This document shows, one piece after another, positions 4,901 to 48,442 of a stretch of 64,000 bases of DNA. The translations under genes were made by a program, and so were the position numbers. Numbering within the stretch: position 1 is the first letter of the stretch; every line of letters begins with the position of its first letter. This stretch comes from Chrysophaeum taylorii (taxonomy: Eukaryota; Sar; Pelagophyceae; Pelagomonadales; Pelagomonadaceae). A model generated the notes under the pieces. It was given only the letters and a program-made list of their open reading frames with translations, did not search any database and was not told where the DNA came from. The stretch spans positions 310,001 to 374,000 of the forward strand of contig JAQMWT010000309.1 of assembly GCA_029834535.1 (NCBI GenBank), given 5' to 3'.

Positions 4901-5140
4901 CTTTGCCGGCGACCGTCTTGGCCGCATCAATCGCCAGCACGGCCGGTGAAGTCGGCGCCGGACATGGTCGCTGCCGTTCGAATCGCAAAGGCCCGCGAGA
5001 CAGCGAGTTCGTGTGAGATTGCGAGTCGACGCAGTATGTGCACCGATATAGAGCTTTTTTTGCGCTCCGCCTGATTTGACTCCTTCTCACGGTTGGTGGA
5101 GGAGAGAGTGGACGCCCGGTCATTATTTCTTCCATTCTAA
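2000..5140 (-). pseudogene. Decayed coding remnant of unknown family
   Basis: The minus strand holds several short stretches that read like real protein but lie in different frames and are separated by stops. Examples are around 4850-4960, around 4316-4600 (VVDVFFREGTKDSFMRIFG-like) and around 3605-4190 (LLIFITTLGLDETRLPQRVA-like). The pattern suggests an old gene or transposon ORF broken by frameshifts. I do not recognise the family. A TGCTC microsatellite sits at 3146-3171. Confidence 0.3.
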
Positions 5141-5572
5141 CGGAATTGGCGGAACCTTCAGTTGCTTTTTTCTTGTTTTTCTGGGCAGGCTATCATCAAG
5201 CGAAGAAACCAGAAAATGAAGCATTCTCTAATTTCTCCCGGCGGTGCCATGCAAGTTGCAGGGCCGCTCCTATTCATTTTGGGTTTGATTCGATTTGCGT
5301 CATGCAAGTTGTCGAAATATTGCCGATAGTTTGACGTCAAGACGGTCGGTCTCGAGGGGCTGGCTTCGGGGGATGTGCCGCGCTCGTGCCGAAGGGAGGT
5401 GCCACGTAAGAGCAGAGTGTCTGCCCACATCTGTATCCCGGCGTACTTTTGCTCGAACTAAAAAGCCGCGTCAGTCACAACAACCCAGAGCCGTCTCGGT
5501 TCGGGCCGGCTTGCTGGCTTGGAGAAGGGCCTGTCGACTTTTTGTCTGGTCTGCAGTGTCTGCTTGGACGGA

Positions 5573-5596
5573 CAGAGCAGAGCAGAGCAGAGCAGA
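5573..5596. repeat. AGAGC pentanucleotide microsatellite
   Basis: About five tandem copies of AGAGC. The same unit on the other strand is at 3146-3171. It belongs to a set of 5-bp repeats seen throughout the window. Confidence 0.9.
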
Positions 5597-5725
5597 CGGA
5601 CGGACGGGCGGGAATTCGCCGTGGTGGCCTCCTTCCTGATTTGATTGATTTTGGCCGCCCGCAAGCCCGGCCGGCCGCGAAGAAGCAGCACAAGCACCCT
5701 GATCGTCGTCTTTGTGTTGAGCAAG

Positions 5726-6772
5726 ACAAGTGCAGGCCAGTAAGTTCACCTAGTCCCAATCTCTAACCCCAGCAAGTTCACCTGTTTCTATTAAGTTCAC
5801 CTAGTCCAAATCTCTAACCCCAGCAAATTCGGCGTAAACCCAATCTCTAACCCCAGTAAGTTCGGCGTAAACTAACACCCACTCTCCTTTGAGCTCGTCG
5901 CTCTCACTCCCGCCAATCTAAGCCGCTTTGATCCGCACACGCCGCTAAGCTTTGAGTTTACTCTAAAAGCCCCAGTAAGTTCACACTCGGTCTCAGTAAG
6001 TTCACCTGGTCACTAAGTTCACCTAGCCCCAATCTCTAACCCCAGTAAGTTCACCTGGTTCCAGTAAGTTCACCTGGTCCCAGTAAGTTAACCTATAGTG
6101 CGCGTGTAAACGCCGGGAGGGGGCTTATCGGTATTGCGCAGCACGTGTGGAGTAGGGTGGAGTCGTCGACCAAGAAGAGGATATCCTCGGGGTTAGTTGC
6201 CGATCGACAGAGAGCCACGTAGAGCTGGACGTGGCAGTAGACGGGCTTCGCCAAGAGGACGCCGACCTCGCGGGGCGTCTGGCCCTGGCTCTTGGTGATC
6301 GTTTGGCGTCGGCGGGCCTTAAGGGATACAGGTTGGAGGAGCCTCGGTGACAACGACACGATCGATCATGTATCTGGTACCGTTGCAGTGGCCGTGCGAC
6401 GGGTCGAGGTTGCGAAGACCGTAAGCTCGCGATCAAAGTCAGCATACCGTTGGTTGTCAGGGAGTTGAAAACTCTACTGTAAAGAGCGAGGCGTCGTCTT
6501 CCGACCCAGCCTAGTCAGCCGAAAAGAACTCCGACGCCTCGTCTCCGGGAAAAAAAAGGCCGCGGTCATGCGCGCGTTGTCAGCATCGACAACATCGTTT
6601 CGACGGGGCGTGAGAATGGCGCGCTGAAAGAACCGCCGCGGGTCGTGGAAACAGTCTGCGAGGTCGCCGTAGACGGCTTTGAGGATCAATGCCTGCTGGC
6701 TCGCGGGCCTACATGATCCTTAACCTAAGTAGGGGGACAAACAGACAAACATCTGTCGATTAGTAGTTAGGA
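5726..6772 (-). mobile_element. Helitron-type relic H1 with Pif1 helicase C-terminus
   Basis: Read on the minus strand, the element starts near 6772 with TCCTAACTACTAATCG and ends near 5726 with GGCCTGCACTTGT. The interior (about 6093-6690) encodes pieces of a Pif1-like helicase: RAILTPRRNDVVDADNA, then TKSQGQTPREVGVLL and QLYVALCR. These match helicase motifs V and VI of Helitron Rep/helicase proteins. The reading frame is broken and the Rep domain is missing. The 3' side carries an array of a motif related to AGTAAGTTCACCTGGTCCC. This is a non-autonomous, decayed copy; Helitron assignment is by helicase type and ends, so a Helentron-like variant is possible. Confidence 0.75.
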
Positions 6773-7002
6773 AGCGAAGGTGCCCCAATTTCGAGAGGGC
6801 TCGGATGGTGTCGAACGCCGAGGTCAACGTGAAGGTAAAATTACTAATGAGTGAAGGTAAAATTACTATTGAAATTGTTCCCTTAAGTTGCCTTGAGGCT
6901 TGAGGCTTAAGGTTGGCGTGTCGTCGGTTTACGCATGTGGACGCGCGGTGACGCCATGTTCACCACGGAGAAAAAAGGCTCGGAGATGACGTTTGTTTGA
7001 TT
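6773..7002. other. Spacer between Helitron relics H1 and H2
   Basis: Contains a duplicated AT-rich phrase (GTGAAGGTAAAATTACTA) near 6830-6865 and no open frame of note. Confidence 0.6.
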
Positions 7003-8394
7003 TCTTAACTACCAATCGACAGATGTTTGTCTGTCTGTTTGTCTTTAAATGTCCACTGTTAAGAGGGGGGTGTTTGTTTGTCTGTCCCTCGATTTAGGGT
7101 AAGGATCAGGTAGGCGCGAGAGTAAGGATCAGGTAGGCGCGAGAGGCAGACAGTGATCCTCCAAGCCGTCTACGGCGACCTCGCAGACTATTTCCACGAG
7201 CCGCGACGGCTCTTTCAGCGCGCCATTCTCACGCCCCGTCGAAACGATGTTGTCGATGCTGACAACGCGCACATGACCGCGGCCTTTTTTTCCCGGAGAC
7301 GAGGCGTCGGAGTTCTTTTCGGCTGACTAGGCTGGGTCGGAAGACGACGCCTCGCTCTTTACAGTAGAGTTTTCAACTCCCTGACAACCAACGGCATGCT
7401 GGCTTTGATCGCGAGCTTAATGTCTTCGCAACCTCGACCCGTCGCACGGCCACTGCAACGGTACCAGATACATGATCGATCGTGTCGTTGTCACCGAGGC
7501 TCCTCCAACCTGTATCCCTTAAGGCCCGCCTACGCCAAACGATCAACAAGAGCCAGGGCCAGACGCCCCGCGAGGTCGGCGTCCTCTTTCCCAAGCCCGT
7601 CTTCTGCCACGTCCAGCTCTACGTGGCTCTCTGTCGATCGGCATCCCCGAGGAGATATACTCATCTGGGTCGATGACTCCACCCTACCCCACACGTGCTG
7701 CGCAATACCGATAAGCCCCCCCCCGGCGTGTACACGCGCACTATAGGTGAACTCTACTGGGACCACGTGAACTTACTGGGGTTTGAGATTGGGACTAGGT
7801 GAACTGAGTGACCAGGTGAAACTGGGACCAGGTGAACATACTGGGGTTTTTAGAGTAAAGGGTTTTTAGAAAAAACTCAAAGGTTGGCGGCGCGTGCGGA
7901 TCAAAGCAGCTTAGATTGGCGGAGGCGAGAGCGACGAGCTCAAAGGAGTTGGTGTGAGCTAGGTGAACTTACTGACCCGGTGAACAAACAAACAAACAAA
8001 CAAACAAACAGACAGACAAACAACCCCACAAACCCACCCACATCCTTCATGCTCCCCACACACACCCCCCTCTTAGCAGTCGACATTCAAAGACAGAAAA
8101 ACATCTCTCATACCCCACAAACCCACCCACATCCTTCATGCTCCCCCCACACACCCCCCTCTTAGCAGTCGACATTTAAAGACAGACAAACAACCCACCC
8201 ACATCCTTCATGCTCCCCACACACACCCCCCTCTTAGCAGTCGACATTTAAAGACAGACAAACACACCTCTTAGCAGTCGACATTTAAAGACAGACAAAC
8301 ATCTGTCGATTAGTAGTTAAGACTTACTGGGACCAGGTGAACTTACTGGGGTTAGAGATTGGGACTAGGTGAACTTACTGGCCTGCACTTGTAG
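7003..8394 (+). mobile_element. Helitron-type relic H2 with Pif1 helicase C-terminus
   Basis: Plus-strand copy starting TCTTAACTACCAATCG at 7003 and ending GGCCTGCACTTGTAG near 8394. The helicase remnant lies at about 7200-7746: ILTPRRNDVVDADNA, INKSQGQTPREVGVLFPKPV and QLYVALCRSASP. Its frame is interrupted between the two blocks. Between about 7983 and 8323 a minus-strand fragment of the family's own 5' end interrupts the 3' repeat array, and that fragment is itself tandemly duplicated (see separate entry). Confidence 0.75.
7983..8323 (-). repeat. Nested Helitron 5'-end fragment with tandem copies
   Basis: An (AAAC)n/(AGAC)n tract is followed by three to four imperfect copies of a segment containing CATCCTTCATGCTCCCCACA and TCTTAGCAGTCGACATT. 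It closes with the family 5' terminus (minus TCTTAACTACTAATCG) at 8323. It is embedded in the 3' repeat array of H2. Confidence 0.8.
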
Positions 8395-8408
8395 TGAATA
8401 ATAAGAAG

Positions 8409-9599
8409 ACAAGTGCAGGCCAGTAAGTTCACCTAGTCCCAATCTCTAACCCCAGTAAATTCGGTGTAAACCCAATCTCTAACCCCAGTAAGTTCGGCGT
8501 AAACCCGCACCCACTCACACCACTCTCCTTCGAGCTCGTCGCTCTCACTCCCGCCAATCTAAGCCGCTTTGATCCGCACACGCCGCTAAGCTTTGAGTTT
8601 ACTCTAAAAGCCCCAGTAAGTTCACACTTGGTCTCAGTAAGTTCACCTGGTCACTAAGTTCACCTAGCCCCAATCTCTAACCCCAGTAAGTTCACCTGGT
8701 TCCAGTAAGTTCACCTGGTCCCAGTAAGTTAACCTATAGTGCGCGTGTAGACGCCGGGAGGGGGCTTATCGGTATTGCGCAGCACGTGTGGAGTAGGGTG
8801 GAGTCGTCGACCAAGAAGAGGATATCCTCGGGGTTAGTTGCCGATCGACAGAGAGCCACGTAGAGCTGGACGTGGCAGTAGACGGGCTTCGCCAAGAGGA
8901 CGCCGACCTCGCGGGGCGTCTGGCCCTGGCTCTTGGTGATCGTTTGGCGTCGGCGGGCTTTAAGGGATACAGGTTGGAGGAGCCTCGGTGACAACGACAC
9001 GATCGATCATGTATCTGGTACCGTTGCAGTGGCCGTGCGACGGGTCGAGGTTGCGAAGACCGTAAGCTCGCGATCAAAGTCAGCATACCGTTAGTTGTCA
9101 GGGAGTTGAAAACTCGACTGTAAAGAGCGAGGCGTCGGCTTCCGACCCAACCTAGTCGGCCGAAAAGAACTCCGACGCCTCGTCTTCGAGAAAAAAAGGC
9201 CGCGGTCATTCATGCGCGCGTTGTCAGCATCGACAACGTCGTTTCGACGGGGCGTGAGAATGGCGCGCTGAAAGAACCGCCGCGGGTCGTGGAAACAGTC
9301 TGCGAGGTTGCCGTAGACGGCGTGGAGGATCCATGCCTGGCTCGCGTGCCTACCTGATCCTTACCCTTAATCGAGGGACAAACGGGTGGGGCCCGGCCCG
9401 TCCTCTCTTCGCCTGCCCCACGCCTCGGCGGTGACCCCGACTAGGTCCCGCGTACTTATCTCCGCCTTTCAGGCACATCCCTAATACCCCACAAACCCAC
9501 CCACATCCTTCATGCTCCCCACACACACCCCCCTCTTAGAAGTCGACACTTAGAGACAAACAGACAAACAGACAAACATCTGTCGATTAGTAGTAAGGA
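8409..9599 (-). mobile_element. Helitron-type relic H3 with Pif1 helicase C-terminus
   Basis: Minus-strand copy. The 5' end (TCCTTACTACTAATCG) is near 9599 and the 3' end (GGCCTGCACTTGT) near 8409. It is highly similar to H1 over the helicase remnant (8734-9209): TKSQGQTPREVGVLL, QLYVALCRSATN. Its 3' end faces the 3' end of H2 across about 15 bp, giving a tail-to-tail pair. The 5' part (about 9386-9440) carries the GC-rich module also seen near 1300 and 30300. Confidence 0.75.
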
Positions 9600-30095: not shown

Positions 30096-31374
30096 TCTTA
30101 ACTACTAATCGACTGATGTTTGTCTGTCTGTCTGTTTGTCTGTTTGTTTGTCTTTAAATGTCGACTGCTAAGAGGGGGGTGTGTGTGTGGGGAGCATGAA
30201 GGATGTGGGTGGGTTTGTGGGGTATGAGGGATGTGCCTGACGGGCGGAGATAAGTACGCGGGACCTAGTCGGGGTCATCGCCGAGGCGTGGGGCAGGCGA
30301 AGAGAGGACGGGCCCCGCCCGTAGGTCGTACGCATGCTGCCGCCGGACGTATGTGCGACGAAGGGTGACGTCCTGCTGGGATGTTTGTTTGTCCCTCGAT
30401 TTAGGGTAAGGATCAGGTAGGCCCGCGAGCCTGGCAGGCATTGATCCTCCAAGCCGTCTACGGCGACCTCGCAGACTGTTTCCACGACCCGCGGCTCTTT
30501 CAGCGCGCCATTCTCACGCCCCGTCGAAACGATGTTGTCGATGCTGACAACGCGCGCATGACCGCGGCCTTTTTTTCCCGGAGACGAGGCGTCGGAGTTC
30601 TTTTCGGCCGACTAGGTTGGGTCGGAAGACGACGCCTCGCTCTCAAGAGTCGAGTTTTGAACTCCCTGACAACCAACGGCATGCTGACTTTGATCGCGAG
30701 CTTAAAGTCTTCGCAACCTCGACCCGTCGCACGGCCACTGCAACGGTACCAGATACGTGATTGATCGTGTCGTTGTCACCGAGGCTCCTCCAACCTGTAT
30801 CACTTAAGGCCCGCCGACGCCAAACGATCACCAAGAGCCAGGGCCAGACGCCCCGCGAGGTCGGCGTCCTCTTGGCGAAGCCCGTCTTCTGCCACGTCCA
30901 GCTCTACGTGGCTCTCTGTCGATCGGCAACCCCGAGGATATCCTCTTCTTGGTCGACGACTCCACCCTACTCCACACGTGCTGCGCAATACCGATAAGCC
31001 CCCTCCCGGCGTCTACACGCGCACTATAGGTTAACTTGCTGGGACCAGGTGAACTTACTGGATCCAGGTGAACTTACTGGGGTTAGAGATTGGGACTAGG
31101 TGAACTTAGTGACCAGGTGAACTTACTGAGACCAAGTGTGAACTTACTGGGGCTTTTAGAGTGAACTCAAAGCTTAGCGGCGTGTGCGGATCAAAGCAGC
31201 TTAGATTGGCGGGGGTGAGAGCGACGAGCTCGAAGGAGAGTGGGGTGAGTGGGTGCGGGTTTACGCCGAATTTACTGGGGTTAGAGATTGGGACTAGGTG
31301 AACTTAACGGGAACAGGTGAACTTGCTGGGGTTAGAGATTGGGACTAGGTGAACTTACTGGCCTGCACTTGTAG
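30096..31374 (+). mobile_element. Helitron-type relic H4 inserted in the MULE
   Basis: Starts TCTTAACTACTAATCG at 30096 and ends GGCCTGCACTTGTAG near 31374. Contains the Pif1 remnant (30441-30997): ILTPRRNDVVDADNARMTA, TKSQGQTPREVGVLLAKPV and QLYVALCRSATP. The 5' side holds (TGTC/TGTT)n, the AGCATGAAGGATGTGGGTGG segment and the GC-rich module. The 3' side holds the AACTTACTGGGACCAGGTG array. Deleting the element joins the two MULE halves in the same reading frame with no duplicated target bases, as expected for Helitrons. Confidence 0.82.
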
Positions 31375-35820: not shown

Positions 35821-36095
35821 GGTCCGAGTTGGAACGTGCGTCGCGGCTCTTTCATCAGACAAAACACGCTCCTTCAGTCTATCGTCGAGCTGTCGTCTGG
35901 ATACAACCGGCACGACACAGCCACCGGTGAACTGAACGCAAGAGCCGCGAATGCCCGCGAGATCATGACGTGCGTCCCTTGTTAAACGATGGTAATATTG
36001 TTAGTTCTGTCCACGGGTTGGCTCCTCCGAGATCGTCCGCCTTGCCCCTCTCTTTTTGCGCTGGCGTGTGCTCACGTCCTGCGGTGTTATCACCA
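35821..36095. other. No feature seen
   Basis: Short region between the transposase relic and Helitron H5 with no recognisable gene or repeat. Confidence 0.5.
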
Positions 36096-37303
36096 TCTTA
36101 ACTACTAATCGACAGATCCTAACTACTAATCGACAGATGTTTGTCTGTTTGTTTGTTTGTTTGTCTGTTTGTCCCCCGATTTAGGGTAAGGATCATGTAG
36201 GCGCGAGAGTAAGCATCAGGTAGGCGCGAGAGCTAGACAGTGATCCTCCAAGCCGTCTACGGCGACCTCGCAGACTATTTCCACGACCCGCGGCGGCTCT
36301 TTCAGCGCGCCATTCTCACGCCCCGTCGAAACGATGTTGTCGATGCTGACAACGCGCGCATGACCGCGGCCTTTTTTTCACGGAGACGAGGCGTCGGAGT
36401 TCTTTTCGGCTGACTAGGCTGGGTCGGAAGACGACGTCTCGCTCTTTACAGTAGAGTTTTCAACTCCCTGACAACCAACGGCATGCTGACTTTGATCGCG
36501 AGCTTAATGTCTTCGCAACCTCGACCCGTCGCACGGCCACTGCAACGGTACCAGATACATGATCGATCGTGTCGTTGTCACCGAGGCTCCTCCAACCTGT
36601 ATCGCTTAGAGTTTTCAACTCCCTGACAACCAACGGCATGCTGACTTTGATCGCGAGCTTAATGTCTTCGCAACCTCGACCCGTCGCACGGCCACTACAA
36701 CGGTACCAGATACATGATCGATCGTGTCGTTGTCACCGAGGCTCCTCCAACCTGTATCGCTTAAGGCCCACCTACGCCAAATGATCAACAAGAGCCAGGG
36801 CCAGACGCCCCGCGAGGTCGGCGTCCTCTTTCCCAAGCCCGTCTTCTGCCACGTCCAGCTCTACGTGGCTCTCTGTCGATCGGCATCCCCGAGGATATAC
36901 TCATCTGGGTCGACGACTCCACCCTACCCCAGACGTGCTGCGCTATACCGATAAGCCCCCTCCCGGCGTCTACACGCGCACTATAAGTGAACTTACTGGG
37001 ACCACGTGAACTTACTGGGGTTTGAGATTGGGACTAGGTGAATTGAGTGACCAGGTGAAACTGGGACCAGGTGAACACACTGGGGTTTTTAGAGTAAAGG
37101 GTTTTTAGAGTAAACTCAAAGGTTGGCGGCGCGTGCGGATCAAAGCAGCTTAGATTGGCGGAGGCGAGAGCGACGAGCTCAAAGGAGTTGGTGTGAGCTA
37201 GGTGAACTTACTGACCAGGTGAACTTATATGAAACTTACTGGGACCAGGTGAACTTACTGGGGTTAGAGATTGGGACTAGGTGAACTTACTGGCCTGCAC
37301 TTG
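36096..37303 (+). mobile_element. Helitron-type relic H5 with internal duplication
   Basis: Two consecutive 21-bp copies of the 5' terminus (TC at 36096 and at 36117) open the element; it ends GGCCTGCACTTG near 37303. Helicase traces: RAILTPRRNDVVDADNARMT (about 36310-36365), and INKSQGQTPREVGVLFPKPV then QLYVALCRSASP (36780-36900). A 155-bp segment, 36452-36606, is repeated immediately at 36607-36761. The 3' part has the AACTTACTGGGACCAGGTG array. Confidence 0.78.
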
Positions 37304-37308
37304 TTAAG

Positions 37309-37575
37309 TCTTTAAATGTCGACTGCTAAGAGGGGGGTGTGTGTGGGGAGCATGAAGGATGTGGGTGGCTTTGCTTGTCTTGCTTCATGTCTTTAAATAA
37401 CGACTGCTAAGAGGGGGGTGTGTGTGGGGAGCATGAAGGATGTGGGTGGCTTTGCTTGTCTTGCTTCATGTCTTTAAATAACGACTGCTAAGAGGGGGGT
37501 GTGTGTGGGGAGCATGAAGGATGTGGGTGGGTTTGTGGGGTATGAGGGATGTGCCTGACGGGCGGAGATAAGTAC
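37309..37575 (+). repeat. 81-bp tandem array of Helitron 5'-subterminal sequence
   Basis: Three units start exactly 81 bp apart (37309, 37390, 37471), each with CGACTGCTAAGAGGGGGGTG and AGCATGAAGGATGTGGGTGG. The last runs on into the longer subterminal sequence. It abuts the 3' end of H5. Confidence 0.88.
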
Positions 37576-37949
37576 TTGCTTCATGTCCTGCTTTGCCCTC
37601 TCGAAGGATCCTGCCGTAGCCACACATCGGTGTTTCTGCCTTTTAACGAGCCGCCCCCCCCCTTACCTCGCGATCTCGTGATTATCTCTTGCTGTGTGTC
37701 GCACACGAACCGAGTTATTCGACCAATGACCGAACTATGTTGCGGCTGAGCAACGAAAATAGTACCGCACGGTCTGGACACAAAAAAAGTCGCGATTTCT
37801 CTCTTATTGGACGCAGTGTCGTAGTCGTCTTTTAGTTCCGGTACTACGCGGCGGCTCTGTGGCCCGCTATACTACTACTACTACGTCCAGCACCTCGTCG
37901 GTCGAAGTCAGAGGTTAACTAGCTTTTGATCAAAAAGGAGGACGGCGCC
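37576..37949. other. No supported gene
   Basis: Contains an ACT triplet run near 37871-37884 and no open frame with recognisable content. Confidence 0.5.
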
Positions 37950-38311
37950 TAACACGCTTGCTCCCTGCGTCGGCCCCGGCCGTCCCGGAGTGAGACGGTG
38001 CCTGCTCGCTTCCCGGGCTGGCCGGTTATTAGCACCCGGGGGAAACAAAAAGTCTGCAGTCTGGGAATCATGGGGTTCGCTCGGTTGGGCAGAACGCGAC
38101 GGACAGGTCGATTGCTCGTGGACCAACACGTCCGCGACCTGCGACGCTTCTGCACGACCTCGCACAAGACCGCGGTCCGCAGTGGCGGTCCACCATCAAC
38201 AAGTCCGTCCTCGTCCCTCGCCTCTGCCCCACAACTGCGTGATTTGCCTCTGTGATTCCGTACCGGCTCCTGCCGGTCCGGCCTGGTTCCTATGCTCGGG
38301 AGAGGTCGGAA
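37950..38311 (+). repeat. Inverted dispersed repeat B, copy 2
   Basis: Matches 22083-22463 in opposite orientation. Here the plus strand carries the shared frame (RRCLLASRAGRLLAPGG, ESWGSLGWAERDGQVDCSWT, then HDLA-DRGPQWRS in a shifted frame). Decayed element of unknown family. Confidence 0.75.
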
Positions 38312-38328
38312 GTTAGTTAGATCAAAAA

Positions 38329-39475
38329 AAGTGCAGGCCAGTAAGTTCACCTAGTCCCAATCTCTGACCCCAGTAAGTTCACCTGGTCCCAGTAAGTTCA
38401 CCTGGTCCCAACCTCTAACCCCAGCAAATTCGGTGTAAACCCAATCTCTAACCCCAGTAAGTTCGGCGTAAACCCACACCCACTCTCCTTTGTCATGATG
38501 CGCCGATGGAACTAGTCCCCATAGTGAAGTCGGCATCCTTTCGCCCCCTCACGCAAAAAAAGGAAAACGCCCACGCGTTGTAGGACCCGTCGTTGCGGCG
38601 CGGGCTAGTCTCGTTTTCTTATCCGACCCTACCTTTGAGCTCGTCGCTCTCACGCCCGCCAATCTAAGCTGCTTTGATCCGCACACGCCGCTAAGCTTTG
38701 AGTTTACTCTAAAAGCCCCATTAAGTTCACACTTGGTCTCAGTAAGTTCACCTGGTCACTAAGTTCACCTAGTCCCAATCTCTAACCCCAGTAAGTTCAC
38801 CTGGTTCCAGTAAGTTCACCTGGTTCCAGTAAGTCCACCTGGTTCCTGTAAGTTCACCTGGTTCCTGCAAGTTCACCTGGTCCCAGTAAGTTAACCTATA
38901 GTGCGCGTGTAGACGCCGGGAGGGGGCTTATCGGTATTGCGCAGCACGTGTGGGGTAGGGTGGAGTCGTCGACCCAGAAGAGGATATCCTCGGGGTTGCC
39001 GATCGACAGAGAGCCACGTAGAGCTGGACGTGGTCGCGATCAAAGTCAGCATGCCGTTGGTTGTAAGGGAGTTGAAAACTCGACTGTAAAGAGCGAGGCG
39101 TCGTCTTCTGACCCAACCTAGTCGGCCGAAAAGAACTCCCGACGCCTCGTTTTTGGGGGAAAAAAGGCCGCGGTCATTCATGCGCGCGTTGTCAGCATCG
39201 ACAACATCGTTTCGACGGGGCGTGAGAATGGCGCGCTGGCTGAAAGAGCCGCCGCGGGTCGTGGAAACAGTCTGCGAGGTCGCCGTAGACGGCTTGGAGG
39301 ATCACTGTCTGGCTTGCTGGCCTACCTGATCCTTACCCTAAATCGAGGCACAAACCCACCCACATCCTTCAATGGCTTCATGCTCCCCACACACACCCCC
39401 CTCTTAGCAGTCGACATTTAAAGACAAACAGACAGACAGACAAACAGACAAACATCTGTCGATTAGTAGTTAGGA
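38329..39475 (-). mobile_element. Helitron-type relic H6, internally deleted
   Basis: Minus-strand copy with the 5' end (TCCTAACTACTAATCG) near 39475 and the 3' end near 38329. Compared with H1 and H3 it lacks about 200 bp of the helicase remnant around 39032, so the KSQGQT block is gone. It has extra AAGTTCACCTGGTTCC units at 38800-38890 and carries an unrelated 139-bp insertion (38493-38631). Confidence 0.75.
38487..38637. mobile_element. Small insertion in H6 flanked by CCTTTG
   Basis: H1 and H3 read through CTCTCCTTTGAGCTCGTCG (Helitron H3 has one change). In H6 the sequence is interrupted by 139 bp and CCTTTG occurs on both sides (38487-38492 and 38632-38637), as for a 6-bp target-site duplication. 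No clear terminal inverted repeat is visible. Confidence 0.7.
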
Positions 39476-39572
39476 CTCCCCACACACACCCCCCTCTTAG
39501 CAGTCGACATTTAAAGACAAACAAACAGACAAACAGACAGACAGACAAACATCAGTCGATTAGTAGTTAGGA
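39476..39572 (-). repeat. Second Helitron 5'-end copy adjoining H6
   Basis: Repeats the CTCTTAGCAGTCGACATTTA segment, the (AGAC)n tract and the terminus (minus TCCTAACTACTAATCG at 39572). Either a tandem duplication of the H6 end or the remnant of another copy. Confidence 0.8.
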
Positions 39573-41471: not shown

Positions 41472-44400
41472 ATGTCATTTCGATGCGCGCTCCTGTGCTG
41501 GGCGGCCTGCGCAAGAGCAGAAGAAACGTGCTTCGAGCTCGTGATGAAGGACGCCGGAGGGAACGGCTGGCAAGGCTCGAGTTATACGATCGAAAGTGCG
41601 GGGAGCGCTCCTGTCCGAAGGGGAACAATCGCATACGGCTACAACCAGACTGACACTATCTGCGTAGCGCCGGCGTGCTTTTCGATCAAGGTGAGCTCGG
41701 GAGATACCGACTCCGAGGTTTCGTGGACGCTCGGCGGTGCGATCAGCGGTGGCGCGCCGGACCTCGGTCGCGAGTTCTACGCTCTTCCCGGAGGGGAAAT
41801 CGTCCAGGGCTCGTGCACATCGACGCCCACGCAAACACCTGCGCCGACGCCCTTGGTATCCTCTTATGCCGTCTTAGTCGCCGCGGTGCAGTCTGGGGCT
41901 GGAACTATCGACGTTGCCGGCTCGATCGACTTCGACGACGAAATCGAGATGAGCAGAAAAGACGTCGGTTTCGTGGGCGTTCCCAAAGCCGTCTTTGATG
42001 GCGGATCTCGGACGAGGCTCTTCAACCTCAAGAACGCGACCTTGTCCCTCACAAACGTTGTGCTCATCTACGGCAGGGCGTTTGTCGGGGGCGGGTGCGC
42101 GCTCGCGACCGACGGATCGAGAATTGACTTGGCGGACTGCGTCGTGACCGCGTGCCGAGCGAGCATTGGAGGTGCATTTTATTTGGATGATCGGAGCCAC
42201 CTCGTCGTGACGCGCTCGAACATAACCTTCAATACGGCCAACTCGGCAAGCGAGCGTCCTTTTACCCAGCACCTTCATACTTAATCATGTAGGATGGCGG
42301 CGTCGCGTACGTCGCCTCGAGGAGCACCATGACCGTAAACGCGAATAGCACGCTCTCGCACAACACAGCAGTAAGATGATGATGATGAGACCAGTGTGTG
42401 TGTGTGTGTGTGTGTGTGTGCCCTCCGGCAACACGAGCGGGAGTCTTGTTTTACCCTCTATTATTATCCGTCTCGAGCTTTTCGCTACCGCAGGGCGATG
42501 TGCGCAGCCAGTGCCGCGCGCGTTTCTCGACCGACTTCCTCGTGCCCGCAGTGCGGCGGCGTCGCTTCCCTCGCAGAATCGAGCCTGGTGAATTTCGAGG
42601 ACAGTCTGCTCGCGTGGAACTATGCCGTACGAATAAAAAAATTATTCTGCGTTGGGATTGATGATTTTTTTCGTCCTCATAAAGATATCTTCTCAAATGA
42701 CGACGACGACACCGGCAGGTCGACGTGCGCCACATGATGCTTTTGTTCTTGCCGCGGTCTACCGACGACGACGATGTCTGCAGGATGGCGGCGTCGCCTG
42801 CCTCCTTCGCTCGAGCTACGTGAATATAAAGAACAGCCAGCTCGAGTCGAATTCCGCCGTACAGACCTACGCAGGGTCCTCCTCTCTTTGCTGTTGTTTC
42901 CTTCTTCGCTCGCGCCTCTACGTTTCTTTGTTGCCCCTCCCGTGCGATGTCTCCTTCTGCGTCGTCACCTACACGCAGCGAAGAACCCCAATAAATCTCC
43001 TCGTAGGGCTCGGTGAGTCGAAAGTTTGTACTGCGCGAAAGAAAGAAAGAAAGAAAGATGGCGCTCTCCTGGACCAACCTTTGTTTCTTCTCGCGTACCG
43101 CTTGCAGTTCGGCGGCGTCGCACTGATACAGAACGCAAGCGTCGTTTCTATCGAGAACAGCGCGCTCGAGTTTAACTCGGTACGAAACGGTTTTGAACCC
43201 GTGGGGGTATCTTTCTTTCCTCTCGCAGGCCGCCGTGCGTCTGGCATCGCCTTGAAACCATCTTTCGCTACCGTATGGAAGCACTGCTGTCTACAGGGCG
43301 GCGGTATCGCGTATGTGGAGGACGCGAGCACGATGGTCGTCGAGAACAGTACGCTCGGAGCAAACATGGTGCAAAAGAAGAAGAAACTCGGCCACGTTTT
43401 TGACACTAATAACGACGACAGGCCGGGGTGCGACAAACAAGTCGTGTGTGCTTTCGTGCGAACGATGTTTGTCCACCGACGCCCTCTTTTTCGGCGCTTT
43501 GTGTGCAGAGCGGCGGCGTCGTCTTCCTTCTCGATTCGAGCACGACGAGCTTCGTCGGCAGCATACTCGCGCATAATTCGGTGCGATGGAAGCGCCAACC
43601 AGGGAATATCTTCTTCTTTCGTGCCTGGCTTTTGTGACTTGTGTGTTCTTTCTTTATCTGGAATGCACCTTGTCTCTACTTCGCGCTCGCTCAAACAAAC
43701 GACGACGGCGACGACTCCCGTAGGCAGCTGCGTGCAGTCAGCGTCGCACACAAGTCGTGTCGCTACTCCAAACTATAGTGTGTCGCGCAGAACGGCGGGG
43801 TCGCTTTTTTGGATTCCTCGAATACGATGACCATCACGGACAGCACGCTCATACATAACACGGCCGTACGATAAAACATCACCCGATTTCCTCGACGCGT
43901 GTTCGGAAAAAAACTGTTACTTTCTGCAGGCTGTGGTGCGAAAGCCAACGCCGCGAAAAAGCCTCTTCTCGTTACGAGATTGCTGACAACACTCCGCTGT
44001 TTGTGCGTCGTAGGATGGCGGCGTCGCGATTGTTTTCGCCTCTAATAGCTTGAGCATTACGGGAAGCAAGCTCGTGGCGAATTCAGCCGTGCTACAAAAT
44101 CCGTCAGCGTCTTTCTTTCGTACCACACATGATCTGTGTGTGTGTATTCGCCCCCCCGCTGGGATGGTGCACTCAAATCACGCACGTCTTGGTCCGCAGG
44201 CCGACGTCCGCCATCCAGCGCCGAAAAAAATAACTCGGAACTGCGACTAGGCGATGGCATTATTACGGTTGTGAGATGCCCGTAGGCTGGCGGCGTCGTG
44301 TACGCGTTCATATATAGTATTATAAGCATCACGGACAGCATGCTCGCAAACAATTCGGCAGTACGAAAAGCACCGTTTATTATTATTCGACTTTTTCGCG

Positions 44401-47400
44401 TGAACGACAACGCCGTCCCATTTCTTCCTCAGGTCGACGTGAGTCGTCCGTGCTGTGTTGTGCAAACCCACAGCTGTAGCGCGGCGGTGTTGTGTTTCTC
44501 CGAGATTCGAGCACGGCGCACGTCACGAGAAGCACCCTCGAGTCGAATGCCGCTTCCGTAAGAAAGTTCTGGACGACGTGGTTGGTTACTCCGTAATAGA
44601 TCTCGGGCGGTGTATTTTTCCTCGCAACGAGGAGCAATTTGGCGCTTTTTGAGACAACGCTCACGAGAAACACGGCCGCAGACTTGACTGGGGCGGCCCT
44701 GGAATGTCAGGTATGTCATGTATCACGTTTTCCGCGCAGCACTTGGAACTACAGGCGTCGAGCACGGTCTACGCTGCGTTGACGACCCTAAACCCGTTGA
44801 CGCAACAATTCAAGTTGGCGGAATCGTGTGTCATGTGAGTTTCGAAGAACGAGACTCGTGGCGGTAGGCATTCTAAGGGCAGGTTCTTCTACCTCGCAAA
44901 CAACAACGGCTCCAGTGCAATGGCGAAGGTTCTTGACGACGCAATAAGCGACGCCGGGACCACCGACCACACATACTGGACTTATCCCTGCGGGGCAGGT
45001 CGGTCTTTGTCTTCCTCGTGTCGTCGTGAACTCACCACTGTTTGCTTTGGTTCATTCATCACATCACATCACATCACATCACATCACATCACTCTGAGTG
45101 AACCGCCAGGCCAATATTCTTCGGACGGGCTAGAACACGGGAACACGCGGGCTTACAAAGACGCTAACAACAGGACAATTGATGAAAATGACCCGTCGTG
45201 TGTAGTAGGAGTGACTTCATCATTGAATGAAGCCGCGTGCTCGGACAGCTGCGTGCCATGTGCACTGCGTGTCATGTAGTGTTATTACGTTGTGGTTTCT
45301 TTCCCACCGCGAAGCTGAAGCTCGGACATTTTTTTTTTTTTATAACAACGACGCACGCGTTTGTTTGCAGGCCCAAGCGGCAGATACAACGAATTTTCGC
45401 TCGACCGCTACTCGCGCTTGGGAGAGGGCTCGTGCAACGAGTGTGAGTGTCGTCGACGCGTTTCCTCTTTTCACGTCCGCGCAGGTCCAGTCGGTCGATT
45501 CCTAGAAGACAACGGCCTAGACGCATCTCTCCACGACGACGAGTCCGATTGCCAGTTGTGTGCGAGAGCCGTTTTGGATGTCGACGACCATTTTAAGTGC
45601 GCAATCCAGGTCCACCAGGAAAATTTGGCAATGCTGTGGGAGAGGACGAGTGTACGACGTGCTCTGTTGGTGAGGAGCAAAACCAGGGAGCTTCTTTTCA
45701 TCCAGTAGTGCTGTAGGCACTTTTGCTGCTGATTCGGGGAACCTGTTCTGCGCGAGCGCCGAGCCCGGATTCCACGTGAATACCTCCGGGGCAAGTGCAG
45801 AGATACCGTGCGCTCGCGGGACGTTTTCGGTCGGGGGGGCGAGCGAATGCACCGAATGTATGCCGCCGCCGCCGCCGCACCCGAGCGTTTCGTTGCCCTA
45901 ACACCAAGACAGGCGAGATTGGTTCGTTCAACAGCGAAATCGGCAATTCGGCGTGCCGTATCGACGCCAGAGTTGGTGCATTTTTTTCGCCTGTCTGTTG
46001 CTGCCGCTGTACGCGGACGCGTCTTCCCACACCCCGTTTGCAAAAAGTTTTGCCGCGTCGCTCTCCTGGAAGCACAATGTCAGAGCGCGCAAAGTTCAAG
46101 ATCAGGTCGCTGTCCGAGCACTATGACAACAAGACACACAGCGTCACGGATGTGCGATGCGTGCGAGGTGTGGACGAGCTACACACATCAACCTCCCGCA
46201 CGGCGGCTTTGCAGGCGTCCTACTATTGGGACTCGGTGCGCTATGCCGCGTACGAGCAGCAAGAGGCACAGTGCACGGAGTGCTGCGTGCAATGCGATAG
46301 TGCCTGCCCCGACGACGATGACGCATGCCATGAGTGCGAGGATCGGCGAGGGGTTATTACTCTCGAGTCATATCCGGTTCAACGAGGATATTGGCGCGCG
46401 ACGCCGTTGTCGACGAAAGTCTACGAGTGTGAGCTCAGAGGCGCGTGCCGCGGCGGCAACGACACAAAGACGAGCGCGCAATGCGCGAGGGGTCACTACG
46501 GTGCGCTTTGCGGTGCATGCCGCGCGCATTTTGATTACTCCCAGCTCCGAAACAAATGCGTAAGTCTCGATGATGAGTCGCGACCAAAAATTGGTCGTCG
46601 TCGTCGACGTCGTTGATCAGGTGAAATGTGGTGGTCCAGCGATAAATATGGTTGGCTCGGCTGGCACTTTAATAATAGTTCTCTTGATCTTCGTCACCAT
46701 CGTTTCCCGTTTTCTGATGCGAAGATTCGGGTTGCACGGCACGTGTTGGCGCGTGTTCGAGGAAATCTTGACGGGTCGTTTCGAATTCATCGAGGCGGTG
46801 AGCTCCTGGGAGCAGCAGCAGCAGCAGCAGCAGAGCGCCGATTCGGAGCGCAAGCAACGCGAACGCTTTCGATCGATCATGACAAAACTCAAGTAGGTTC
46901 ACCGCCGGCGGCTCTCTAGAAACATGACGACGTCTCTTCTTCTGCGTGCGTAGGATTGTGATTGCTTGCTGGCAAATCTCGTCGTCGACGGTCTGGACGC
47001 TGCCGCGAGTGCGGTTTCCGGTTCTATTCGAGGTCGTGCTCAAGACTGGCCGCGCCTTGGGCTTGGACTTCATCGAGCTCGGAAGCTTCAACTGCGCGTT
47101 GCAATTGTCGTACTTCTCCAAGTTGTGCGTCGCGAGCCTCCTTCCGTTCGCTTTCGCTCTCGTAATCTGCTGCGCGTACGCCGCGGATCTCGCTCGATCG
47201 AGGGTGTGGCGCCGCCGCGACGATTTCGAGGAGCGCAAGGAGCGCGCGGCTTCGATGGCCACGTATTTGCTGCTCTTGATCTTCTATGTCGCGCTTCCGA
47301 GTTGTTCGTCGTACACTTTCCGTTACTTTTCGTGCTTGAACTTCGACCGCGGCCGCGGACGCGACAACCTCCGAGTGCTCGCCGTATCGATGGACATCCG

Positions 47401-48442
47401 ATGCACGAGCCCAGCATACCGAGGCTGGCTGTGGTTCGTGGTGCTGATGGTGATAGTCTGGCCGATCGGCGTGCCTCTCTCGATCGCCGTGCTGCTGTGG
47501 TCTAATCGGCACCGGTCGGTCTCGCGTTGTTGTTGTTGTTGTCGTCGTCCCGAGGTAAAAGTTCAGGTTGGATCCGCCGTTGGAAGGGGACAGCCGGCGT
47601 CTTTTTCGGCGCGATCGCCGCCAGCTGGTCGCCGCCGCCGATCAGCGAAAGAAAATCGAAGTTCGCGACAAAGATCACGAGCTCCGGCGAATCGAGTTCA
47701 TCTTCGAGGAGTACCAGCCTCGAGTACTCTCCGAGTTTTTTTTTCGCTTTCTCTCAGCTGCTCGCTGCAGGTGTGGGCCTTTCCTGTTTTCGAATTGGTT
47801 CGACGCGTCTTCCTCTCGGCCGTTCTCGCGATGTGAGCCTCCCTCCTCATCCTTTGATTGGATTGGATCAGGTTCTACCCCGGCTCGACGAGCCAGGTCG
47901 CCGTCGGCGCGCTTGGCGCTTTCGTCGGCTCGCGCAGCGTCTCTCTCTTGTTTAAAAGCGACGCGTCTGGCGAAGGTGTCGCATCGCGTCTTCCTGCACT
48001 ACCAGCCCTACATAAGCGACGAAGACAACCTCGTCAGCGAGCTCGCGCAGACGCGTGAGTCTTTTTTTCGTCTTTTTTTCGTCTTTTTTTCGTCTTTTTT
48101 TCGTCTTTTTTCGCGCGTCCGTTTCTCACCTATTTGCGCGACCAGAGCTCGTGATCATCTATTTCGTGCGTGCGGCCGTGTGACCCTTAGTTCTCACTTT
48201 CACCTCAGGCGGCTCTCGTGGTGTACGCGAGCAACGAGACCAGACAAAAAGAGGGAGTCTTCGCGAGCAACACCTTTGGGGCCTTGCTGGTCATCGTCTA
48301 TTTTTCGTCCTTCGCCTTGGCTGTTTGGATCGTTCTCCTCCAACTTTATGGTGTCGAGGAGACCCCCAGCGGCGGCGGCGAGAGACTCGATCCTGCGCGA
48401 GAAAACGTCGTCGACATGGATTTTGAGGAAGCAAAAAACTAA
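41472..48442 (+). CDS. Large multi-exon surface protein: beta-helix rungs, Cys-rich repeats, membrane domain
   Basis: Exon 1 from ATG 41472 encodes a signal peptide (MSFRCALLCWAACARAEE), a CFELVMKDAGGNGWQGSSYT domain ending near SEVSWTLGG, and the first beta-helix rungs. Ten exons then each carry one rung of the type GGVAxLxxSSxxxIxxSxLxxNSA: 42293-42370, 42552-42626, 42784-42858, 43108-43179, 43297-43368, 43509-43580, 43791-43865, 44014-44088, 44286-44360, 44480-44557. All are phase 0 at both ends. Exon 44600-44710 ends the series. Further exons code Cys-rich GCC2/GCC3-like segments (PCGAG|QYSSDG, PVGRFLEDNG, PPGKFGNAVGEDECTTC, CARGTFSVGGASECTEC). Next comes GYWRATPLSTKVYECEL, then membrane segments (TLIIVLLIFVTIVSRFLM, YLLLLIFYVALPSCSSYTF, WLWFVVLMVIVWPIGVPL, GALLVIVYFSSFALAVWIVL). 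Likely a plasma-membrane protein with a large ectodomain; function unknown. The last splice is unresolved (frames across 48052-48209 do not join by plain GT-AG). Confidence 0.8.
45057..45096. repeat. CATCA pentanucleotide microsatellite in an intron
   Basis: About seven tandem copies inside an intron of the surface-protein gene. The donor follows GGGGCAG near 45000 and the acceptor is most likely CCGCCAG near 45110. Confidence 0.9.
48056..48112. repeat. CTTTTTTTCGT 11-bp tandem repeat in an intron
   Basis: About five units of T7-CGTC form an extended pyrimidine tract in the last intron of the surface-protein gene. Confidence 0.88.

Follow-up and report, generated by a model that had tools for sequence, protein, structure and literature searches.

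The window analyzed here is a 64,000-nucleotide stretch of contig JAQMWT010000309.1 from Chrysophaeum taylorii (positions 310,001 to 374,000), and within it we studied one forward-strand gene (internal label C309) that contains an array of short repeat exons. Judged from its sequence, the gene product is probably a secreted, membrane-anchored surface protein of the beta-helix type belonging to a photosynthetic alga, photosynthesis being deduced from the chlorophyll a/b-binding family, which has 84 matches in the 70.8-Mb assembly (697 contigs) that served as the searched genome. Ten exons of 72, 75 or 78 bp each carry the body of one helical rung (GG...NxA), and in every intervening space, nine in all, lies a 6-bp unit that we propose to be a two-codon microexon; a splice acceptor precedes it, and a donor, eight times GT and once GC, follows. 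The layout is given below in window coordinates. Rung exons 1 to 10 were recognized by AG/GT borders and an open frame and the microexons by AG/donor borders; their ranks are those in the splice-matrix scan described further on.

41472..42245, + strand: first exon (open frame), with a signal-peptide-like start (by eye), the N-terminal domain and the first uninterrupted rungs, ending in NTANS; its donor is GC (gcaagc)
42246..42292, + strand: 47-nt GC-AG intron without a microexon, from splice borders and exon reading; the linker residues N,S lie in the preceding exon
42293..42370, + strand: rung exon 1, 78 bp
42494..42499, + strand: predicted microexon 1, GGCGAT (Gly-Asp), rank 1
42552..42626, + strand: rung exon 2, 75 bp
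42719..42724, + strand: predicted microexon 2, GTCGAC (Val-Asp), rank 1
42784..42858, + strand: rung exon 3, 75 bp
43007..43012, + strand: predicted microexon 3, GGCTCG (Gly-Ser), rank 2
43108..43179, + strand: rung exon 4, 72 bp, ending in NS
43229..43234, + strand: predicted microexon 4, GCCGCC (Ala-Ala), the first Ala completing NSA, rank 1
43297..43368, + strand: rung exon 5, 72 bp, starting directly with GGG and ending in NM
43422..43427, + strand: predicted microexon 5, GCCGGG (Ala-Gly), the Ala completing NMA, rank 2
43509..43580, + strand: rung exon 6, 72 bp, ending in NS
43724..43729, + strand: predicted microexon 6, GCAGCT (Ala-Ala), the Ala completing NSA, rank 1; this is the one with a GC donor
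43791..43865, + strand: rung exon 7, 75 bp
43930..43935, + strand: predicted microexon 7, GCTGTG (Ala-Val), rank 1
44014..44088, + strand: rung exon 8, 75 bp
44200..44205, + strand: predicted microexon 8, GCCGAC (Ala-Asp), rank 1
44286..44360, + strand: rung exon 9, 75 bp
44433..44438, + strand: predicted microexon 9, GTCGAC (Val-Asp), rank 1
44480..44557, + strand: rung exon 10, 78 bp, ending in NAAS
44558..44599, + strand: 42-nt intron without a microexon, from exon reading; linker residues S before it and I,S after it lie in the flanking exons
44600..44710, + strand: exon of rung 11, 111 bp, open frame, beginning ISGGVFF
44755..48442, + strand: remainder of the gene (by eye), with Cys-rich repeats, a hydrophobic multi-pass region and a stop at 48442

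All ten rung exons (42293-44557) are multiples of 3 in phase 0, just as the initial annotation had it, and they have AG and GT at their borders and open frames. The exon that follows rung 11 (44755-44834), the only modelled part of the remainder, is 80 bp long and hence not symmetrical. The exon edges conform to the earlier description in starting before a GG pair and depart from it in that the fifth begins with GGG itself, three stop at NS, NM and NS and the tenth ends in NAAS. What we have to give up is the idea that every exon encodes one whole repeat, since linker residues are assigned to a predicted 6-bp microexon in each of the nine spaces. The structure is real and regular, and it is richer than had been described. 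An inter-rung space of this gene very probably consists of two introns around a predicted two-codon, phase-0 microexon that would supply the missing linker residues, yielding predicted repeats such as NTA-GD-C-GG, NYA-VD-D-GG, NSA-GS-F-GG, NS-AA-G-GG and NM-AG-S-GG. In three of the nine cases NxA is left without its Ala at the end of the body exon, and in each of these the microexon starts with Ala. The initial annotation had named translation of the spaces between rungs as a finding that would speak against it; the 6 bp of each space that we predict to be translated would do so in part. A longer coding exon that continues past the hexamer, with a VRxPxP-like downstream reading, was considered and rejected, stops occurring within a few codons in several copies (by eye).

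The same arrangement recurs in four paralogues, which together with the window gene make up the intron-rich relatives. Using hand-picked exon ends, we collected 36 inter-rung spaces (9 from the window gene, 9 from C11, 5 from C548, 11 from C542 and 2 from C684), and 34 of them contain the pattern YAG/GNNNNN/G[TC] at a distance of 41 nt or more from each end. In these 34, acceptor and donor are in register and flanked by viable introns, the intron halves measuring 41-149 nt over the five genes, compared with 42 and 47 nt for the single introns of the window gene. With a strict donor, a spacing of 6 is found in 26/36 spaces, and no other spacing in the range 0-45 exceeds 3/36. A slightly looser pattern occurs 27 times in the 36 spaces against a mean of 0.58 and a maximum of 4 in 300 dinucleotide shuffles, and for any GT or GC donor the 34/36 compare with a shuffle mean of 9.16 (maximum, 16). 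For the window alone, the strict donor gives 7/9 (mean, 0.13; maximum, 1; 300 shuffles) and any GT or GC donor 9/9 (mean, 1.93; maximum, 5). Since the observed counts exceed the shuffle maxima, the hexamer units of the window cannot be put down to chance. A splice matrix trained only on the rung-exon borders of the other genes (leave-one-gene-out), scanning for internal exons of 0-60 nt, placed the 6-nt unit first in 20/36 introns and among the top three in 33/36, with no other exon length first more than 3 times; in the window it came first in 7/9 and second in 2/9.

The spaces and introns that lack the unit fit the same scheme. Of the two exceptions, the space at C11 2777 is followed by an exon that begins NF-GG, and the one at C542 13124 is an intron of 70 nt preceded by an exon that finishes with NIA-Y. 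Likewise, YAG-N6-G[TC] is absent from all four array-end single introns examined (two in the window gene, one in C684 and one in C542), and each of these has an exon-borne linker: NTA-NS/D-GG at 42246-42292, NAA-S/IS-GG at 44558-44599, NYA/GNS-GG at the last C684 intron (151 nt) and NIA-N/GS-GG at the last C542 intron (64 nt), the slash marking the intron. Because introns without a unit have their linker residues in the flanking exons, microexon and exon-borne linker appear to substitute for each other.

The linker length can be compared with that of relatives whose rungs need no splicing. Bacterial Pmp/POMP-type repeats have the same rung period and the same motifs, GG[VAI] and NxA, as the window gene and its uninterrupted algal relatives. 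The bacterial proteins and these algal relatives are coded without interruption, unlike the window gene, whose rungs match no Pmp model; the many relatives with uninterrupted rungs in this genome bear out the earlier remark that the repeats of beta-helix proteins of the polymorphic membrane protein type are usually uninterrupted. We surveyed eight relatives as open frames, among them L049, which has no rungs, and L012, which is the uninterrupted part of C548. Counted with a regular expression that includes some overlapping matches, the linkers from NxA-like motif to GG comprise 2-6 residues in 52/53 cases and one residue in 1/53, and the GG-GG period is 26-29 in 50/64. The exon lengths of the window gene give a period of 24-26 without microexons and 26-28 with them. 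A genome search with the spliced rungs (E up to 1) returned 98 matches with microexons (11 of them own exons) and 42 without (10 own), and the best match outside the window gene rose from 36.8 to 61.9 bits. The gain was seen for the regions on C688 (61.9 bits with, 25.7 without), C9 (59.4 and 23.1), C11 (58.8 and 31.6) and C548 (55.8 and 36.8); C340 moved in the opposite direction (19.0 with, 22.8 without), and C679 hardly changed (34.3 vs 33.2).

Two further tests addressed the same similarity. When BLAST scores of the spliced rungs against seven uninterrupted proteins were summed, the true microexons gave 308.9, none gave 222.1 and XX at each junction gave 280.4. Random in-intron peptides, 40 per length, reached means of 245.8 (one residue), 285.8 (two; standard deviation, 8.1), 273.0 (three), 236.1 (four) and 208.3 (six), and none of the 200 controls (0/40 at every length) attained the true score. 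A two-rung hidden Markov model (HMM) built from 57 uninterrupted segments was applied to 33 of the 34 unit junctions; the microexon raised the score of 27 of them, including 9/9 in the window. For the three window junctions with a body exon that stops short of its Ala, only 3, 4 and 1 of 60 random dipeptides equaled the microexon in this model.

The introns themselves carry a shared signal. CAGYGY[CG] is located 7-32 nt after the donor in 16/34 first introns and 19/34 second introns. The 26 nt that follow contain it in only 0/28 and 1/28, and mononucleotide shuffling gives means of 0.29 and 0.34. The donor of the microexon is thus similar to that of the rung exon not only in sequence but also in its surroundings. 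Throughout the genome, YAGG N5 GTGCG N5 CAGYGCC with at most one mismatch has 23 matches, of which 17 lie in the arrays of this gene family; ten of the 23 are exact, nine in this family and one on C60. The 6-nt unit is, in other words, concentrated in this family. The pattern GTGCG N4 CCAGCGCC has 16 matches, only 5 of them in the family, and 7 in the reversed control.

Several observations weigh against inclusion of the microexons as coding sequence. The reversed control of the one-mismatch joint pattern still gives 16 matches (vs 23). In 16/36 introns, 14 of them among the 34 that contain a unit, something other than the 6-nt exon scores highest, some donors are GC, and two of the 34 units (C11 1763 and C548 937) would create a four-residue linker, the next exon having two residues before its GG. 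Microexons permuted among the junctions average a summed score of 298.6, with 8/40 permutations reaching the true score, and one of the seven proteins, L047, matches slightly better without microexons (35.4 vs 34.3). In the HMM test, 6/33 junctions are not higher with the microexon (one is a tie), and overall random dipeptides score as well as the microexon residues (mean rank of the latter, 31 of 60). Finally, the Pfam model Beta_helix (PF13229) matches the version without microexons at 71.2 bits (E, 9.9e-20), and a Pfam search of the version with microexons returned nothing at E 1.

Since random dipeptides are equally good on average, the HMM test speaks for the length of the linker and not for the identity of its residues; identity is unsupported by that test as a whole and supported by the summed BLAST scores. 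We regard the sequence similarity as strong evidence for the predicted linker length and as moderate evidence for the exact microexon residues. In this respect, similarity to the relatives points indirectly to a coding contribution of the microexon, and the Pfam result is contrary to it. The uninterrupted C548 rungs, which require no splicing, obtain only 22.6 bits on PF13229, below its cut-off, and the relative on C45 has no match to it. Given that genuine uninterrupted rungs of the family score below the cut-off, we take the preference of PF13229 to be probably an effect of the shorter period of that model. TIGR04212 (rhombotarget A) of NCBIfam matches only the version with microexons (E, 4.7e-6), far below the curated cut-off. 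For the window rungs, no Pmp family was among the Pfam matches at E 1 or the NCBIfam matches at E 10, and searches of PHROGs and solved structures with the rungs gave nothing useful.

The Pfam preference would be expected if each space were a single intron and AG/N6/GT were a conserved intronic element (decoy sites, an enhancer or a splicing ratchet) that never enters the mRNA, and the location of the hexamer inside a wider conserved intronic patch, GTGCG..CAGYGCC, also agrees with this. Such an element would not be expected to stay fixed at exactly two codons while its letters vary, nor to start with Ala exactly where the body exon has none. It would also leave the better fit of the own-genome relatives with the two residues, and the linker residues in the exons around introns without a hexamer, without a cause. 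On the grounds of linker length, relatives and exceptions, we no longer take the single-intron explanation as the leading one and retain it as an improbable rival.

The initial annotation had raised the possibility that introns were copied along with the exons. This is evident on C542, where the first introns of neighboring units are up to 94% identical and the second introns up to 97%; that array grew through recent copying of the exon plus its introns. The introns of the window gene are no longer alignable beyond short signals, so no recent copying is visible there. In C542, twelve rung exons make up the array, and four neighboring ones are followed by GC donors (gcaagac or gcgagac), the other eight having GT. 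By sequence reading, the introns concerned are as follows.

C542, joined reverse strand (L009+L010+L046): GC-donor intron after rung exon 11737
C542, joined reverse strand: GC-donor intron after rung exon 12017
C542, joined reverse strand: GC-donor intron after rung exon 12295
C542, joined reverse strand: GC-donor intron after rung exon 12573

It seems that this donor variant was copied along with the unit. For five equal-length neighboring exon pairs, drawn from seven of the twelve C542 exons, silent and replacement changes per site are 0.32/0.07, 0.15/0.09, 0.06/0.06, 0.17/0.15 and 0.53/0.16, on small counts. Silent change being at least as large as replacement change (nearly equal in two pairs), diversifying selection is not indicated.

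The arrays could in principle be pseudogenes in decay, or neutral relics, whose old intron structure merely survived through the copying of repeats. One related copy, on C469, does look decayed, with few recognizable rungs, and in the newest C542 copies the introns are about as conserved as the exons. On the other side, the window rung exons all keep their frame and splice sites, the five C542 pairs show silent change no lower than replacement change, with the two near-equal pairs and the small counts just noted, and in the diverged genes the introns drift while the hexamers keep their length and sites. We hold this explanation to be very unlikely.

A two-exon assembly of the rungs with predicted inclusion of the microexon is, in our judgment and from sequence data, highly likely to be the best explanation for the presence of the unit, its fixed length, the quality of its splice sites, its recurrence in five genes, its concentration in this family, the return to the repeat length of uninterrupted relatives when it is included and the gain in similarity, all of which are observed. 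Both exons of a rung would be in phase 0. The body exon (GG...NxA) has 24-26 codons; the microexon, 6 nt long, would contribute with its two codons the turn that leads from NxA to the GG of the following rung. Two short introns of 41-149 nt would be removed around the microexon from each inter-rung space. As 6 nt are too short for both splice sites to be bound at once, splicing may proceed as two successive intron-defined steps, in which the CAGYGY element downstream of many donors might help. Repeat number would change by copying of a block of body exon, microexon and both introns, as on C542.

Conceivably, the microexons are real and yet optional, with skipping of turn or body exons producing many ectodomain variants, as has been proposed for the leucine-rich repeat (LRR) exons of brown algae. 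Every rung exon and microexon of the window array is symmetrical, so any skip would preserve the frame, and there is a precedent in the ROCO LRR exons, for which up to nine transcripts are reported (PMC11378527). However, skipping would result in periods of 24-26 residues and linkers of 0-1 residue, and a one-residue linker is found in just 1/53 of the relatives' linkers. We consider optional use rather unlikely. It is a long shot that the alternating body and turn exons form a construction kit encoded through splicing, in which regulated inclusion directed by the CAGYGY signal would generate a large ectodomain repertoire.

Among known systems, the nearest in kind are brown-algal genes. One repeat of the ROCO LRR is encoded per symmetrical 72-bp exon in phase 2, with alternative transcripts (PMC11378527). 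The window gene resembles the brown-algal ROCO (LRR) and NB-ARC-TPR genes in tandem copies, symmetrical repeat exons and a putative recognition role, and differs from their whole repeat per phase 2 exon in phase 0, in another fold and in a repeat split between body and linker. If the microexon is used, no single symmetrical exon of the array holds a whole repeat; copying of an exon with its introns is found on C542 and undetectable in the window gene. The schistosome micro-exon genes (MEG) are described as arrays, within one gene, of short exons that are mostly multiples of 3 and measure down to 6 bp (PMC10526429); most of these exons are 15 bp, the introns are 0.1-5 kb and the products are secreted proteins (PMC10526429). 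Unlike these, the window gene strictly alternates predicted 6-bp exons with exons of 72-78 bp, has introns of 41-149 nt and encodes a repeat-domain protein, so that mainly very short 3n exons between long introns are not what it displays. Plant ultra-short microexons (1-15 nt), which the predicted ones resemble in being just a few nucleotides long, are missed by annotation and depend on signals in the flanking introns, and the same work also points out that they are too short to hold both splicing complexes (PMC8831610). In the cases described there, one microexon or two adjacent ones occur per gene (PMC8831610), compared with nine predicted ones inside a repeat array in the window gene. In what was accessible of the open-licence literature on tandem or alternating microexon arrays and split repeat exons, alternating body and turn exons are not described, which is no proof of their absence.

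If the proposed structure is correct, nine 6-nt exons in one gene alternate strictly with repeat exons, and the window gene and its four paralogues together hold 34. They would form a dense natural test set for the way in which the spliceosome handles exons too short for both splice sites, with matched controls in the same genome in the form of the uninterrupted relatives and the introns without a unit. They would also demonstrate that the exon borders of a repeat protein can fall between rung body and turn. In arrays of this kind, annotation will probably lose or corrupt the turns, and gene prediction would easily miss the pattern.

The gene family extends well beyond the five arrays. The hydrophobic C-terminal region has at least 50 matches across the genome, own matches included, and 15/50 of the match rows lie in open frames of at least 1,000 codons. 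In the intronless relative on C45, a MAM domain (2.5e-9) accompanies Ephrin_rec_like repeats (8.5e-19), and the PDB contains a match to it, the mastigoneme-like protein Mst1 (2.4e-12) of Chlamydomonas. The C469 copy (L013, about 5000-6200) has only three recognizable rung starts, with odd lengths. At C370:200000-203000 (L049), the same hydrophobic C-terminal module is joined to other repeats that look cadherin-like by eye, GG..NxA rungs were not found in the upstream 3 kb, and the ectodomain of this gene may have been exchanged. The C2 region, a candidate intron-rich member, shows no rung array by eye. A genome-wide rung-start pattern gave 21 matches, against 6 in the reversed control; 11 fall in known arrays and no clear further array emerged.

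Some observations are unrelated to the arrays. Nearly the same matches were obtained within the pairs C10/C297 and C133/C140 and at two places on C670, which suggests haplotype copies or assembly duplications. Light-harvesting genes form clusters with near-identical match scores at C88:35406-41267, C539:24843-30127, C390 and C533. Within the window, dispersed families of short tandem units lie at 5809-8735, 31028-31177 and 36095-39572; the units are a 19-bp one resembling CCAGTAAGTTCACCTGGT, a 33-bp one, a 23-bp one and a long C-rich one, and the families are each met again at two or three sites, some of them inverted, as copies of one mobile element would be.

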